NCBI GenBank assembly: GCA_902591565.1
Contig: CACJBC010000006.1
Location: forward strand, 1 to 60,263
Source: an uncultured SAR86 cluster bacterium
Lineage (GTDB): Bacteria; Pseudomonadota; Gammaproteobacteria; Magnimaribacterales; D2472
Direction: 5' to 3'
Length of the DNA: 60,263 nucleotides
The position numbers and the translations under genes are program-made. Each line of letters begins with the position of its first letter. Position 1 is the stretch's first letter. The notes beneath the pieces are model-generated. The model was not told where the DNA came from, ran no database searches, and saw nothing but the letters and a program-made list of their open reading frames with translations. This document shows positions 16,972 to 22,267 of the stretch, one piece after another.

Positions 16972-17907
16972 TTAGCCTCTTTTTTTAATAAATACAGATG
17001 ATTTTGCCCAACTTTTTTTATCTTGAGCTGGCATTGTACCAACATAATTTCCTGGTTCTTTAATATCTTTAGTAATGAGCGTATGTGCGCCGACTGTCAC
17101 ATCATCACAAATTTTTAAATGTCCAATGACTCCCGACAAACCTCCCATCCTAAAATTTTTACCAATAACTGTAGACCCAGCGATTGCACATGAGGCCGCT
17201 ATGGCTGAATTTTTACCAATAATTACGTTATGCGCTATTTGTATTTGATTGTCTAATTTAACTCCATCATGTATCTCAGTATCTGAAATAGCCCCACGAT
17301 CAATTGAACAACATGCACCAATTTCTACGTTTGAGCCTATAATTAATCCTCCAATCTGCTCTATCTTTATATAGCCATTTTTTGTTGGTGCATAACCAAA
17401 TCCATCAGATCCAAGAACAGAACCATTATGGATAATAGTACTTTCTGATATCTGAACATCCTGAACAATTGAACAATTAGATTTAATAATTACATTATTA
17501 CCAATAGAACAATTAGGCCCAATAACAACATTTGCTCCAATAGATACATTCTTACCAAGAATTGCATCATTTGAAATGACTGCTGACGGATGAATAGATT
17601 TATTTTCTAGTTCGATATTTCCACTTTTAAAAAGCTTGCTAACATGAGCATAAACCTCATAGGGATTTTCATTAACAATATAATTCCTATGATCTTCTTC
17701 AAGATTTTCTTGATTAGTAATAATTGCAAGAGATTTTGAATTTTTAAGATGCTTCCTATATTTTGTGTTAGCTATAAATGTTATTGAAGAATTTGAAGCG
17801 TTTTCTAGGGTTGATAAATTGTCGACAATAAAATCTTTATTGCCGACAATATTTGAATTTGTTAAATCAGCTATGTAACCTAATGAATAGCTCTTGTCTT
17901 TTGGCAC
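16972..17907 (-). CDS. lpxD: UDP-3-O-acylglucosamine N-acyltransferase
   Basis: 311 residues (E. coli 341). Third lipid A enzyme, adding the N-linked hydroxyacyl chain. An N-terminal uridine-binding domain is followed by a long run of hexapeptide repeats (for example SIGANVVIGPNCSIGNNVII). The active-site region contains GSDGFGYAPTKNGYIKIEQI and the His in IQIAHNVIIGKNSAIAASCAIAG, written here in part. The start is GTG at 17907, overlapping the skp TAG by one base. The C-terminal helix is shorter than in E. coli. Confidence 0.94.
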   Translation of the reverse strand: MPKDKSYSLGYIADLTNSNIVGNKDFIVDNLSTLENASNSSITFIANTKYRKHLKNSKSLAIITNQENLEEDHRNYIVNENPYEVYAHVSKLFKSGNIELENKSIHPSAVISNDAILGKNVSIGANVVIGPNCSIGNNVIIKSNCSIVQDVQISESTIIHNGSVLGSDGFGYAPTKNGYIKIEQIGGLIIGSNVEIGACCSIDRGAISDTEIHDGVKLDNQIQIAHNVIIGKNSAIAASCAIAGSTVIGKNFRMGGLSGVIGHLKICDDVTVGAHTLITKDIKEPGNYVGTMPAQDKKSWAKSSVFIKKRG

Positions 17908-18443
17908 TAATCCGTTTTTGCACCATTTTCAGAAGCAGCTACATCAAGCATTGACGTAACATCATCTGTTAAATCAAGCGCCTGATCACTGAAAAGAATT
18001 GTTTCATTTTTTTGCAGTAACATTTTAATTTGCTTTGCCTGAATTAACTCACCAATGATTTTTTGCATTGCAGCACCACTGCTAACGAATACTTTTTGAG
18101 CTGTTTCTTCTTGAGCCTGTTGTAATTTTCCTGCTAGAAATTCTATATCTTTTCCAAGTTCTTGAATATCTTTTTGCATTTTAGCAATATCTTCATTTGA
18201 TAAAGTTTCAAGTTCTTTTTGTAATTTTTCAGCTAACTCCTGTCTTTCAGATTGTAGTGCTTGCGCTTCTTCAAGATTACTTGCGTAATCAGGATCTTCT
18301 TCAAGAGCTTTAAAGGCATCACTAGCTGCTTGAGTTGAAAGAACTGCAGCTCTCATATCAATGACTGCTATCTCATCAGCATTAGCATGCTGTATCGACA
18401 TTAAAAAGATTGCTAAAAAGTTAAGTTTTAAAATATTTTTCAT
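17907..18443 (-). CDS. skp: Periplasmic chaperone Skp/OmpH family
   Basis: 178 residues with a signal peptide (about residues 1-22, cleavage near HANA-DEIAV). The mature N-terminus EIAVIDMRAAVLST matches the family start. A charged coiled coil of about 80 residues follows (around residues 50-125), forming the tentacles that hold unfolded outer membrane proteins between the Sec and BAM machines. It lies between bamA and lpxD, as in E. coli. ATG start with AAGGGG upstream, 36 bases after bamA. Confidence 0.88.
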   Translation of the reverse strand: MKNILKLNFLAIFLMSIQHANADEIAVIDMRAAVLSTQAASDAFKALEEDPDYASNLEEAQALQSERQELAEKLQKELETLSNEDIAKMQKDIQELGKDIEFLAGKLQQAQEETAQKVFVSSGAAMQKIIGELIQAKQIKMLLQKNETILFSDQALDLTDDVTSMLDVAASENGAKTD

Positions 18444-18479: not shown

Positions 18480-20897
18480 TTAGAATACATTTCCTACTGT
18501 GAATTGGAATTCCTTAGTTCTCTCGAATTGACCTGCATTCTGTGGACTTGCAAAAGCAAAACTCATAGGTCCAAAACCGGTAATCCATGTTACACCTACT
18601 CCGAAAGAATACCTTAAATCATCAATTGCAGGCTTGTAACAATTAATTTGATAGTCTTTGCAGTTATCCGAAAATACATTACCGAAATCAAAAAAGAATG
18701 CTGATCTTAGCGAGCGTTGATCTTCAATAAAAGGTAGTTTAAATATGAGTTGGAGGCTTCCTTCTACCTTAATATTTCCACCGATGGATACTCTATTTGT
18801 ATATTCAGTATTTGCATACGGATTATAGTAAGGTGTATCAGGAATATCATCCCCATCTGTATCTATTAGATTTGGACAAGTGCCTTCAGCATAATTAAAT
18901 TCATAACATGGTGGATTAGTGCTTCGTGGACCTAATGTATTTGACTCAAAACCCCTCAAAGACCTCGGGCCGCCTGCATAAAAATTTCTAAAAAAGGGTG
19001 TTTCTTCAGTATCACCAAAAGCTTTTGTGTAACCAAGATCAATATTAAAACCAAATACATAATTCCTAGATAATGGTCTATAAAATTTATAAATATAATT
19101 AGCTCTTGCATAATCAATATCACCAACTGGAATTGTTGAAGAGATGCTAAAAACTGTTGAAGATCCATTAGTTGGAAATAGCCCTCTGTTTAATGTAACT
19201 TTCTGATATGAAATTTGAGCTGTTAGAGTCTCAAAAATACTACCCTCTGAATTAACAAAATCCCATATTTCTCTGGCTGGCCTACTACCAATATCAATAT
19301 CAGTTTTGTCGTATGTAAATCCAAAATTTAGTCTTTGAACATCAGAAATAGGATAACCAAATTGTATTCCTGTGCCTTGTGAATTTGTTAAATAGTTAGC
19401 AACGTTAAACTCACCATAATCTGTTTCTCTAAAATAAAGGTTGTAACCTCTGCTAACACCATCTTTTGTAAAGTAAGGATCTACAAATGAAAAATTGTAA
19501 CTTTCTGAATATATATTCTTGTTGATTCCAATACCAACAGTATTTCCAGATCCAAGAAAATTTTGTTCTTGTAAATTGAAGCCTAACATTAATCCAAAAT
19601 CACTATATCCAATATTGCCACCTATTGAACCTGTCGTTTCTTCTTCAACGGTATATATAACATCTACTTGATCGTCTGATGACGCTACTGGAACTGTTTC
19701 GACCTCAACTTGTTTAAAATATCCCAATCGCTCAAGCCTAACTTTTCCAGTTTCAATCTGATTATCAGATGACCAAGCTCCTTCAAACTGTCGCATTTCT
19801 CGTCTTAGTACATGATCTTGAGTGGTCTCGTTGCCTGAAAATAATATTTTTCTTGTATATGTTCTATTTCCAGCATTAACATTAAAAGTAATTTTTACTT
19901 CGCTGGTTCCGTCATCTATTTCTGTTGAGGGATTAACTTCTGCAAAAGCATACCCTTGATTCCCAAGGATGTTTATAAAAAAATCTTCTATTGATGTAAT
20001 TTGTTGTTGTGAGTATGTCTGTCCCTTGAGAGCGGTAACTACATTTTCATATGCAGATAATTCTACAGGAATATCACCAGTTACTTTGACATCAGATATC
20101 TTATGTTTTTCACCCTCAAATAGATTATAGTTAATAAAAATATCTTTATAATCTTTCGATAGGCTAACTTGAGCAGATTCAACAGAGAACTTTATATAGC
20201 CTCTGTTTTTATAGAAAGATTCTAAAGACTCTATGTCTCCTGTTAATTTTTCTTTGGAATATGCATTATCATTCCTAAGAAATGAAAAAAATGATCCTTC
20301 AGATAACTCAAATGAATCTTTAAGATCATCATCTGAGAATATTTCGTTGCCAATGATATTAATTTTCTTAATTTTTGCTCCAGTTCCTTCGTCAACAATA
20401 ATATTAATTTCAATTGTATTTCTGGGCTGATTAATTTCTTCAATCTCTACATTTGCTCCATATCTTCCATTTGATGAATAAGACCTAACCAATTCATATT
20501 TTACCTTCTCCAAAGTAGATCTTTTATAAACACTTCCTTCTTTAATACCAACTCCGTCAAGGCTTTCTAATAACTGCTCTGTTTCAAGAGCTTTATTTCC
20601 TGAAATATCAATTTTAGAAACTGAAGGCCTTTCTACAACACCTATAATTAATGTACTCTCATCTCTTGCAATTGTTATGTCATCAAATTGTTCAGTATTA
20701 AATAAAGATTTTGTAATTTCTTTAGATTTTCTTATATCTATCTTGTCGCCAACTGTAATTGGAATAATATTAAAAATACTTCCAGTTGAGACTCTTTGTA
20801 GTCCAACAACTCTTATATCACTGACTATAAATTCATCAAAAGAATATGCTTGAACTGACATGATCAGACATAACAAATAGATTTTAAACTTTTTCAA
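18480..20897 (-). CDS. bamA: Outer membrane protein assembly factor BamA
   Basis: 805 residues. It inserts beta-barrel proteins into the outer membrane. Signal peptide (residues 1-19, ending near VQAYSF), five POTRA repeats to about residue 420, then a 16-strand barrel ending in Phe (FTVGNVF). The barrel-locking motif is RGFESNTLGPRS. The loop after it carries two Cys and a DTDGDDIPD segment (residues 679-687) that looks like a calcium-binding loop. The start is TTG at 20897: an in-frame stop lies directly upstream, an AGGAAG Shine-Dalgarno sequence precedes it, and the TTG is needed for a complete signal peptide. Confidence 0.96.
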   Translation of the reverse strand: MKKFKIYLLCLIMSVQAYSFDEFIVSDIRVVGLQRVSTGSIFNIIPITVGDKIDIRKSKEITKSLFNTEQFDDITIARDESTLIIGVVERPSVSKIDISGNKALETEQLLESLDGVGIKEGSVYKRSTLEKVKYELVRSYSSNGRYGANVEIEEINQPRNTIEINIIVDEGTGAKIKKINIIGNEIFSDDDLKDSFELSEGSFFSFLRNDNAYSKEKLTGDIESLESFYKNRGYIKFSVESAQVSLSKDYKDIFINYNLFEGEKHKISDVKVTGDIPVELSAYENVVTALKGQTYSQQQITSIEDFFINILGNQGYAFAEVNPSTEIDDGTSEVKITFNVNAGNRTYTRKILFSGNETTQDHVLRREMRQFEGAWSSDNQIETGKVRLERLGYFKQVEVETVPVASSDDQVDVIYTVEEETTGSIGGNIGYSDFGLMLGFNLQEQNFLGSGNTVGIGINKNIYSESYNFSFVDPYFTKDGVSRGYNLYFRETDYGEFNVANYLTNSQGTGIQFGYPISDVQRLNFGFTYDKTDIDIGSRPAREIWDFVNSEGSIFETLTAQISYQKVTLNRGLFPTNGSSTVFSISSTIPVGDIDYARANYIYKFYRPLSRNYVFGFNIDLGYTKAFGDTEETPFFRNFYAGGPRSLRGFESNTLGPRSTNPPCYEFNYAEGTCPNLIDTDGDDIPDTPYYNPYANTEYTNRVSIGGNIKVEGSLQLIFKLPFIEDQRSLRSAFFFDFGNVFSDNCKDYQINCYKPAIDDLRYSFGVGVTWITGFGPMSFAFASPQNAGQFERTKEFQFTVGNVF

Positions 20898-20905
20898 TTA
20901 ACTTC

Positions 20906-22267
20906 CTAAAAAAATCGAGATATATCATTAAAAATTGCAAATATTATTAATGCGCCTACAAGTAGTGCTCCGCTTGTATATATAAAATTTTCTATTTTTT
21001 CTTCTAAAGGTTTGCCTCGAATTGCCTCTATGCTTAAAAGCACTAATTGTCCTCCATCTAAAACTGGAATTGGAAGTAAGTTCAACACCCCTAAACTTAT
21101 ACTAAGCAAAGCCATTAAATACATAAAAGGTATAAATCCAGCTTGTGCAGTATTCCCTGCCATTTGTGCGATTCCAATTGGACCACTTAAATTTTCTGTG
21201 CCCATATTTCCTGTAATCATTTTTCCAATAAACTGAAGAGTCTTAAGGCTGAGGTTATATGTTTCATAAATTGCTTTAGAAAAAGATTCAAATATAGATC
21301 TGCTTGTACCAAAAGAAACTCCTATGATTCCATACTCTTTACTATCGTCTTGTATAGATGAACCAATTTCTACAGGTAGCTGAATTAACCTATCATCTCG
21401 ATATATATCAAAAAATGCCGTTTCATTGGGTAGCTTCGAGACGACCTTTCTTATATCGCTGGCATATTCAATTTCAATATTATTAATCCTTGAGATGACA
21501 TCATTTGCTTTCAGGTTTGCATTATCTGCGGGACCATTACTAATTACAGAGCCTATTATTGGTTTCATTTTATACTCTAAATCTAGCCCAAGATGTTTTA
21601 TAGGATTAGCTTGGGATTCTGAAGTTGGTAAAAAGTTCTCAACATTGATACCAATATTTATGTTGCTATCAATATCTACTCTTTTTATAACAAGGTGAAT
21701 TGTGCCTGAGTATCCAGCATAGGATAATAACTCAAGGCTAATATCTTTTGGATCAGATATATTTGAAGAGTTAATAGCAACTATTTCATCTCCAGGCAAA
21801 AGAAAGTCATTAGATGATTCAAAACTTAGAGAGCCATCAATGCCTTTAATAACTGCTGTTGTTTGTGGGTCTGGTGTGTTAAAGAATATAAGTGAAAAAA
21901 TTAATATTGATAATAGAAAGTTTGCAAGAGGTCCGGCAAACATGATTATTGCTCTTTGCCATTTTGGCTTAGAATCAAATGTATTCTTTATTTGGTCTTC
22001 AGTTAATTGCTCTTTAGTTTCGGGTTCTAGTTCTATTAGTTTGTCAGTGATCATTGAGACATATCCACCAAGTGGAAGAGCAGATATAGCAAACTCAGTG
22101 CCATGTTTATCAAGTCTCTTATAGATTACCGGACCCATGCCTATAGAAAATCTTTGCACATGAACATTAAAGATTCTAGCAAATTTGAAATGCCCATATT
22201 CATGTATAGTCACTAATACACCAAGCAATGCTATAAAAGAGACAATGTATATAATTGATGTTGTCAT
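20906..22267 (-). CDS. rseP: Site-2 protease RseP
   Basis: 453 residues, the usual length. Inner-membrane zinc protease that cuts RseA and other proteins within the membrane in the envelope stress response. The zinc motif HEYGH is at residues 22-26 in the first membrane segment; the third ligand lies in PIPVLDGGQL near the C-terminus. Two PDZ domains lie between (around residues 120-310; for example GPADNANLKANDVISRI). It is followed by bamA after 8 bases. Confidence 0.95.
   Translation of the reverse strand: MTTSIIYIVSFIALLGVLVTIHEYGHFKFARIFNVHVQRFSIGMGPVIYKRLDKHGTEFAISALPLGGYVSMITDKLIELEPETKEQLTEDQIKNTFDSKPKWQRAIIMFAGPLANFLLSILIFSLIFFNTPDPQTTAVIKGIDGSLSFESSNDFLLPGDEIVAINSSNISDPKDISLELLSYAGYSGTIHLVIKRVDIDSNINIGINVENFLPTSESQANPIKHLGLDLEYKMKPIIGSVISNGPADNANLKANDVISRINNIEIEYASDIRKVVSKLPNETAFFDIYRDDRLIQLPVEIGSSIQDDSKEYGIIGVSFGTSRSIFESFSKAIYETYNLSLKTLQFIGKMITGNMGTENLSGPIGIAQMAGNTAQAGFIPFMYLMALLSISLGVLNLLPIPVLDGGQLVLLSIEAIRGKPLEEKIENFIYTSGALLVGALIIFAIFNDISRFF

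Follow-up and report, generated by a model that had tools for sequence, protein, structure and literature searches.

The window, by which we mean the whole 60,263-nucleotide stretch of SAR86 DNA that was analysed, carries on its minus strand an 805-aa ORF with a TTG start that encodes BamA, the outer membrane protein assembly factor. The ORF matches TIGR03303 with an E value of 4.6e-230 and 765.9 bits (cut-off 297.15), and it contains the Pfam Omp85 and POTRA domains above the curated cut-offs, which places it within BamA. One genome search found a BamA match in 58 of 61 genomes, and the nearest named record among the 80 matches listed is that of the SAR86 isolate AG-917-O19, at 88% identity. 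The neighbours of bamA are ordinary: an rseP-like protease with a Peptidase_M50 domain is encoded upstream (20906-22267), an OmpH/Skp-like chaperone is encoded downstream (17907-18443), and beyond the latter are ORFs that we take to resemble lpxD, fabZ, lpxA, and lpxB. There were also four genomes (G003, G032, G091, and G119; loci L057, L044, L196, and L197) in which BamA is spread over several frames or has internal stops, probably due to sequencing errors. The features of the gene are collected in Table 1.

Table 1. Features of bamA and its extracellular loops in the window.
Feature	Position	Strand	Basis
bamA	18480..20897	-	ORF, TIGR03303, Pfam
RGF barrel-lock motif, residues 648-650	18948..18956	-	sequence
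Enlarged part of extracellular loop L6, residues 655-708 (LGP...GGN)	18774..18935	-	sequence comparison
L6 Cys pair C664 + C674 (C-x9-C)	18876..18908	-	likely disulphide, presumed bond
Predicted metal loop DTDGDDIPD, residues 679-687	18837..18863	-	conservation; geometry inferred from PMC3123361
Predicted small beta-hairpin, residues 676-689	18831..18872	-	AlphaFold barrel model
Second Cys pair C746 + C753, next extracellular loop	18639..18662	-	alignment of 54 sequences

A first-pass annotation of this locus had pointed to a DTDGDDIPD stretch after the RGF motif and to a further Cys pair in a later loop, and both are indeed present in the minus-strand sequence, with the later pair corresponding to C746/C753. 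Along L6 of the window's BamA, the order is RGF, the C664/C674 pair, and then DTDGDDIPD. The spacing from GP to GG in this loop has a median of 8 aa in 80 rows, nearly all of which are from other Gammaproteobacteria and which include three loci in the wrong reading frame (L201, L216, and L225) and one locus (L202) of family f3. L6 in the window's own family (f1) and its sister family (f4) is some 40 residues longer than in most of the class sample. C664 and C674 are invariant in 94/94 distinct f1 and f4 proteins (of the 19 f4 loops read separately, two are ambiguous at one Cys position), and two Cys were found in 0 of the 60 L6 loops from the other two families of the order, f2 and f3. The pair is likely to form a disulphide. 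The C746/C753 pair is nearly invariant (at least 90%) in a 54-sequence alignment (A1) that includes families without the motif, and PDB chain 9pxj likewise has a Cys pair at this place. Judging from these alignments, the second pair is therefore not tied to the motif loop, and it looks older than the L6 pair.

Aligning the acidic residues of close relatives had been proposed as a test of the loop, and no loss was seen. Among the 107 f1 genomes searched, 99 had a BamA match and 97 were read at the loop, since the BamA fragments of two (G009 and G117) stop short of it. The pattern is present in 93/93 of the f1 loci that are fully readable at the motif, the remaining four of the 97 having ambiguous bases inside it, and in 18/19 f4 loci (19 of 21 genomes had a BamA match), the single exception being an Asp-to-Glu replacement at position 9, which is still a carboxylate. 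The motif was found in 0/30 f2 loci (from 31 matched genomes, 35 searched) and in 0/30 f3 loci (23 + 7, from 37 matched genomes, 40 searched). Elsewhere in the Gammaproteobacteria it was found in 0/86 loci. Of the 276 genomes in that search, 271 had a match, and the loci were picked from the top-scoring rows, which makes the sample a biased one. For this sample, 75 loci were parsed together (L201, L216, and L225 in their correct frame, L203 being misplaced), 10 more were legible, and L203 and L260 were read separately. L203 (G171) is a gammaproteobacterial BamA-like ORF of 1206 aa; the insert in its L6 is far longer than 250 residues and contains several Cys as well as stretches rich in Asp and Gly, but not the nine-residue motif. 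On the tree, f1 and f4 form one clade (support 0.999) and the motif-less f2 and f3 form another (0.987). Most simply, the motif would have arisen once, before the split of the two SAR86-order families f1 and f4. The f2 and f3 proteins share with the window's BamA the gene and a loop running from RGF to GG, and in f2 and some f3 proteins L6 is fairly long and has DxxGN turns and an NPY end, whereas they have neither the motif nor a loop with two Cys. Specifically, DNEGNPI or DSDGNPI turns lie near the same place in f2 and part of f3, with the shared NPY after them. This hints at, without establishing, an origin of the putative metal loop from a DxxGN-type turn.

Amino-acid changes were counted for each column on a FastTree phylogeny of the 94 distinct f1 and f4 proteins, a set that lies apart from the f4 locus with Glu at position 9. 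D679, D683, and D687 exhibited 0 changes, and residue 681 changed four times, always between D and N, while the five other motif columns changed 16, 10, 9, 21, and 14 times. The codons of D679, D683, and D687 underwent 13, 9, and 14 silent third-base changes, respectively, indicating that neither time nor mutation was lacking at these invariant residues. Across the 38 columns of residues 666-703, the only ones that never change are C674, D679, D683, D687, and N692. When the 1-3-5-9 spacing was slid over 30 registers, the register starting at 679 was the lowest with 4 changes in total, the runner-up (675, which shares 679 and 683) had 6, and the third had 23; 0.19% of random four-column sets reached 4 changes. 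A wider set of 178 readable f1/f4 loci gave the same picture: all 178 have D at positions 1, 5, and 9, and either D or N at position 3. This set derives from 182 loci, four of which have ambiguous bases; it includes eight f4 loci as well as the 77 legible loci of 80 from another release, which largely repeat the same genomes. Position 6, which is Gly in the Dx[DN]xDG motif, is Gly in 158/178 loci and non-Gly in 20/178, the window's copy having Asp. The residues D, E, L, N, or S at this position (18846-18848 in the window, minus strand) occur mainly in the window's own genus (g1), with the ligand Asp residues fixed, and a weakening or retuning of the putative site in this genus is possible. N692 (18822-18824, minus strand), five residues past the motif, is invariant in 94/94 proteins and could serve as an additional ligand or belong to the turn. 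As it lies outside the motif, a metal-binding loop leaves one conserved column unexplained.

The window's stop-to-stop ORFs of at least 100 aa add up to 21,648 residues, in which the pattern D-x-[DN]-x-D-x-x-x-D matches once, in BamA. Genome-wide, we found no enrichment of this pattern, with 11 DNA matches (one contains a stop codon and some sit in short frames) versus 18 in the reversed control. Thus, the presence of the pattern alone is not significant; its conservation, by comparison, is far beyond chance. One further match, DYDGDGYAD (L367, G000:C1:39989-40015, minus strand), falls in a frame that we presume to resemble an MltB-type lytic transglycosylase; members of this family are known to have a calcium site resembling an EF-hand.

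Known Dx[DN]xDG loops offer a template for the motif. According to the available text of PMC3123361, calcium is bound in such loops by the side chains of positions 1, 3, and 5, by a carbonyl after the motif, and by one or more acidic ligands further along. In the integrin and other 'calcium blades', which are located at the tips of beta-propeller blades, this additional ligand is an Asp or Glu two residues on, at position 9. The terms 'BamA' and 'outer membrane' each occur 0 times in the main text of that paper. The nine-residue spacing of the SAR86 loop is of the integrin 'calcium blade' type. The first-pass annotation had assigned the stretch to thrombospondin type 3 or EF-hand-like loops and proposed that calcium stabilises it. 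Conservation lends good support to a putative metal-binding surface loop, but the family label was off the mark, as there is no significant match to the thrombospondin type 3 or EF-hand profiles and the ligand expected at the 12th position is missing. An EF-hand would have an acidic residue at position 12 (residue 690), which is Y, A, G, or F in 94/94 proteins; the AlphaFold barrel model places no helix next to the motif; and the best EF-hand_5 match had an E value of 0.14 and 12.2 bits versus a cut-off of 25.9. Among thrombospondin type 3 profiles, the best E value was 0.014 for TSP3_bac (3/18 loops) and 0.057 for TSP_3 (2/18 loops), and the highest TSP3_bac score was 14.9 bits versus a cut-off of 25, with the window's loop matching neither. 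No Pfam calcium family gave a significant match. Solved structures were similarly at chance level. A single-sequence search with the loop returned the adhesins 8dj2 (E 0.13) and 8f90 (E 0.26), and a loop profile search returned eight matches, consisting of 8f90 at E 0.023 and 7uc3, 9e5c, 4mkm, 4yqy, 1sw8, 8dj2, and 1ggz at E 0.93 to 8.2, two of which are calmodulin-type. The word 'calcium' is absent from the main text of PMC12679949, a paper mentioning 8f90.

We modelled the protein with AlphaFold both at full length and as the barrel only. The full-length model (54 sequences) has the BamA fold, with mean pLDDT values of 72 and 67 in the two blocks covering the motif; near the motif it has only isolated bridge residues (673 and 691), and the hairpin strands are absent. 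The barrel model (77 f1/f4 sequences) has a mean pLDDT of 80 for residues 677-686, and DSSP assigns it a strand at 676-678 and a two-residue strand at 688-689, such that the turn consists of exactly the nine motif residues. Each of these is the top-ranked of five models, and the five barrel models ranged from 79.6 to 72.3 in mean pLDDT. With moderate confidence, then, the motif is predicted to be a hairpin turn in one of the two models. This placement bears only indirectly on whether the aspartates would converge on one site, which the first-pass annotation had named as a check. In fold comparison, the barrel model matched 6fsu with a Z score of 37.6 and an rmsd of 2.4 over 353 aligned residues, which identifies it as a BamA fold. 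The best 50 fold matches of each model were all BamA or BAM entries, and they are uninformative on the loop itself.

From these results, we consider it probable that residues 679-687, as the tip of a short hairpin, form an integrin-type metal loop and that, together with the disulphide, this loop pins the L6 insert. The side chains of D679, D681, D683, and D687 and the backbone carbonyl of I685 would bind one divalent cation, most likely Ca2+, with Mg2+ as the alternative. The ion and the C664-C674 disulphide would then pin the roughly 40-residue insert into a compact cap, and the capped insert would keep the RGF-bearing loop ordered above the barrel. An ordered outer part of L6 would be a reasonable benefit, since the RGF lock sits in this loop, whose importance in E. 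coli was concluded from loop deletions (PMC3871556). At the concentrations of seawater, about 10 mM Ca2+ and 50 mM Mg2+, even a low-affinity site should be occupied, and the fit of a calcium-type loop to seawater that the earlier annotation proposed is plausible. Counting against a metal loop are the full-length model, with its missing hairpin and modest pLDDT, the Asp at position 6 in the window's copy, and the lack of both a significant Pfam calcium match and a genome-wide enrichment.

The same conservation could be produced by a tight Asp/Gly-rich turn that binds no metal, uses Asx hydrogen-bond caps, and goes back to a DxxGN hairpin in an ancestor, of the sort that f2 and some f3 proteins have. 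The DNEGNPI and DSDGNPI turns with their NPY end, as well as a DPDYDYECA stretch in L6 of E. coli, make such an origin plausible; however, a turn of this kind would not be expected to hold a carboxyl or amide at each of positions 1, 3, 5, and 9 when positions 4 and 6 are variable. Swaps at the four fixed positions are limited to D/N at position 3 and one D-to-E at position 9, and the f2 turns lack this spacing (0/30). We therefore regard the metal-free turn as unlikely. Returning to the metal loop, a more ambitious version of it is that ion occupancy serves as a lock, closing when the tip of the loop becomes surface-exposed and fixing either the insertion of BamA or the position of L6 during client folding. 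We find this very unlikely, but if it were true, outer-membrane assembly would depend upon seawater calcium. The Asp residues could also be a conserved acidic interface for a partner, such as a SAR86 lipoprotein, LPS, or another BAM subunit. Such a role has a precedent in Flavobacterium johnsoniae, where BamA loop L5 is a platform for BamM, which has modelled calcium (available text of PMC12611786), yet the free variation between the ligand positions (16, 10, 9, 21, and 14 changes) is less expected of an interface, and we consider this reading highly improbable. Lastly, a chance Asp-rich stretch in a functionless surface loop, to which the 11 versus 18 pattern counts would lend themselves, is contradicted by residues that stay invariant in 94 distinct proteins although their codons have changed silently, and has a negligible probability.

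Both the motif and the protein are known, and their combination is described by none among the literature matches listed. These matches likewise included no paper that places calcium in a loop of BamA or Omp85, with subscription papers largely outside their scope. SAR86 is one of the bacterial groups that abound in the surface ocean. If the metal loop is real, an essential outer-membrane machine of such a group would have gained a metal site, the loop of an outer-membrane barrel would be an added setting for the Dx[DN]xDG-type calcium motif, and the divalent ions of seawater would be tied to outer-membrane assembly. It would also constitute a rigid, near-invariant surface feature on hard-to-culture cells.

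One of the known systems near the SAR86 protein is E. coli BamA (6fsu, 9cs2, and others), with which it shares the barrel fold, the RGF lock, and a Cys pair in L6. In E. coli the latter consists of C690 and C700, and the authors concluded from loop deletions that L6 is important (available text of PMC3871556). The first-pass annotation had correctly credited E. coli with this pair and had also denied it the Asp pattern, which is true of the full pattern but not of spaced Asp residues as such: the E. coli-type chain 9mgf_F reads DPDYDYECA just before the first L6 Cys, with Asp at positions 1, 3, and 5 but Ala at position 9. This stretch is located on the opposite side of the Cys pair from the SAR86 motif, and nothing motif-like follows the second Cys in the 9mgf_F alignment. 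We know of no report of calcium at DPDYDYECA, so Asp residues at positions 1, 3, and 5 in this loop need not mean metal, and our confidence in the SAR86 metal loop is slightly lowered as a result. In F. johnsoniae, it is the enlarged loop L5 of BamA that provides the platform for the lipoprotein BamM, and calcium ions are modelled in BamM, the partner, and not in BamA (available text of PMC12611786). Outside BamA, a Lactobacillus PepX has a loop with the same spacing as here (xDxDxDGxxD) that is a calcium-binding loop in a crystal structure, even though PepX is an alpha/beta hydrolase unrelated to BamA (available text of PMC10536834). The integrin-type loops differ from the SAR86 loop in residing in a beta-propeller rather than an outer-membrane beta-barrel loop, and in having Gly at position 6, where the window's copy has Asp. 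Nonetheless, the two share Asp/Asn at positions 1, 3, and 5 and an acidic residue at position 9; the turn between two strands is predicted for SAR86 by the barrel model and not by the full-length one. Both are found outside the cell, as in most known contexts of the motif.
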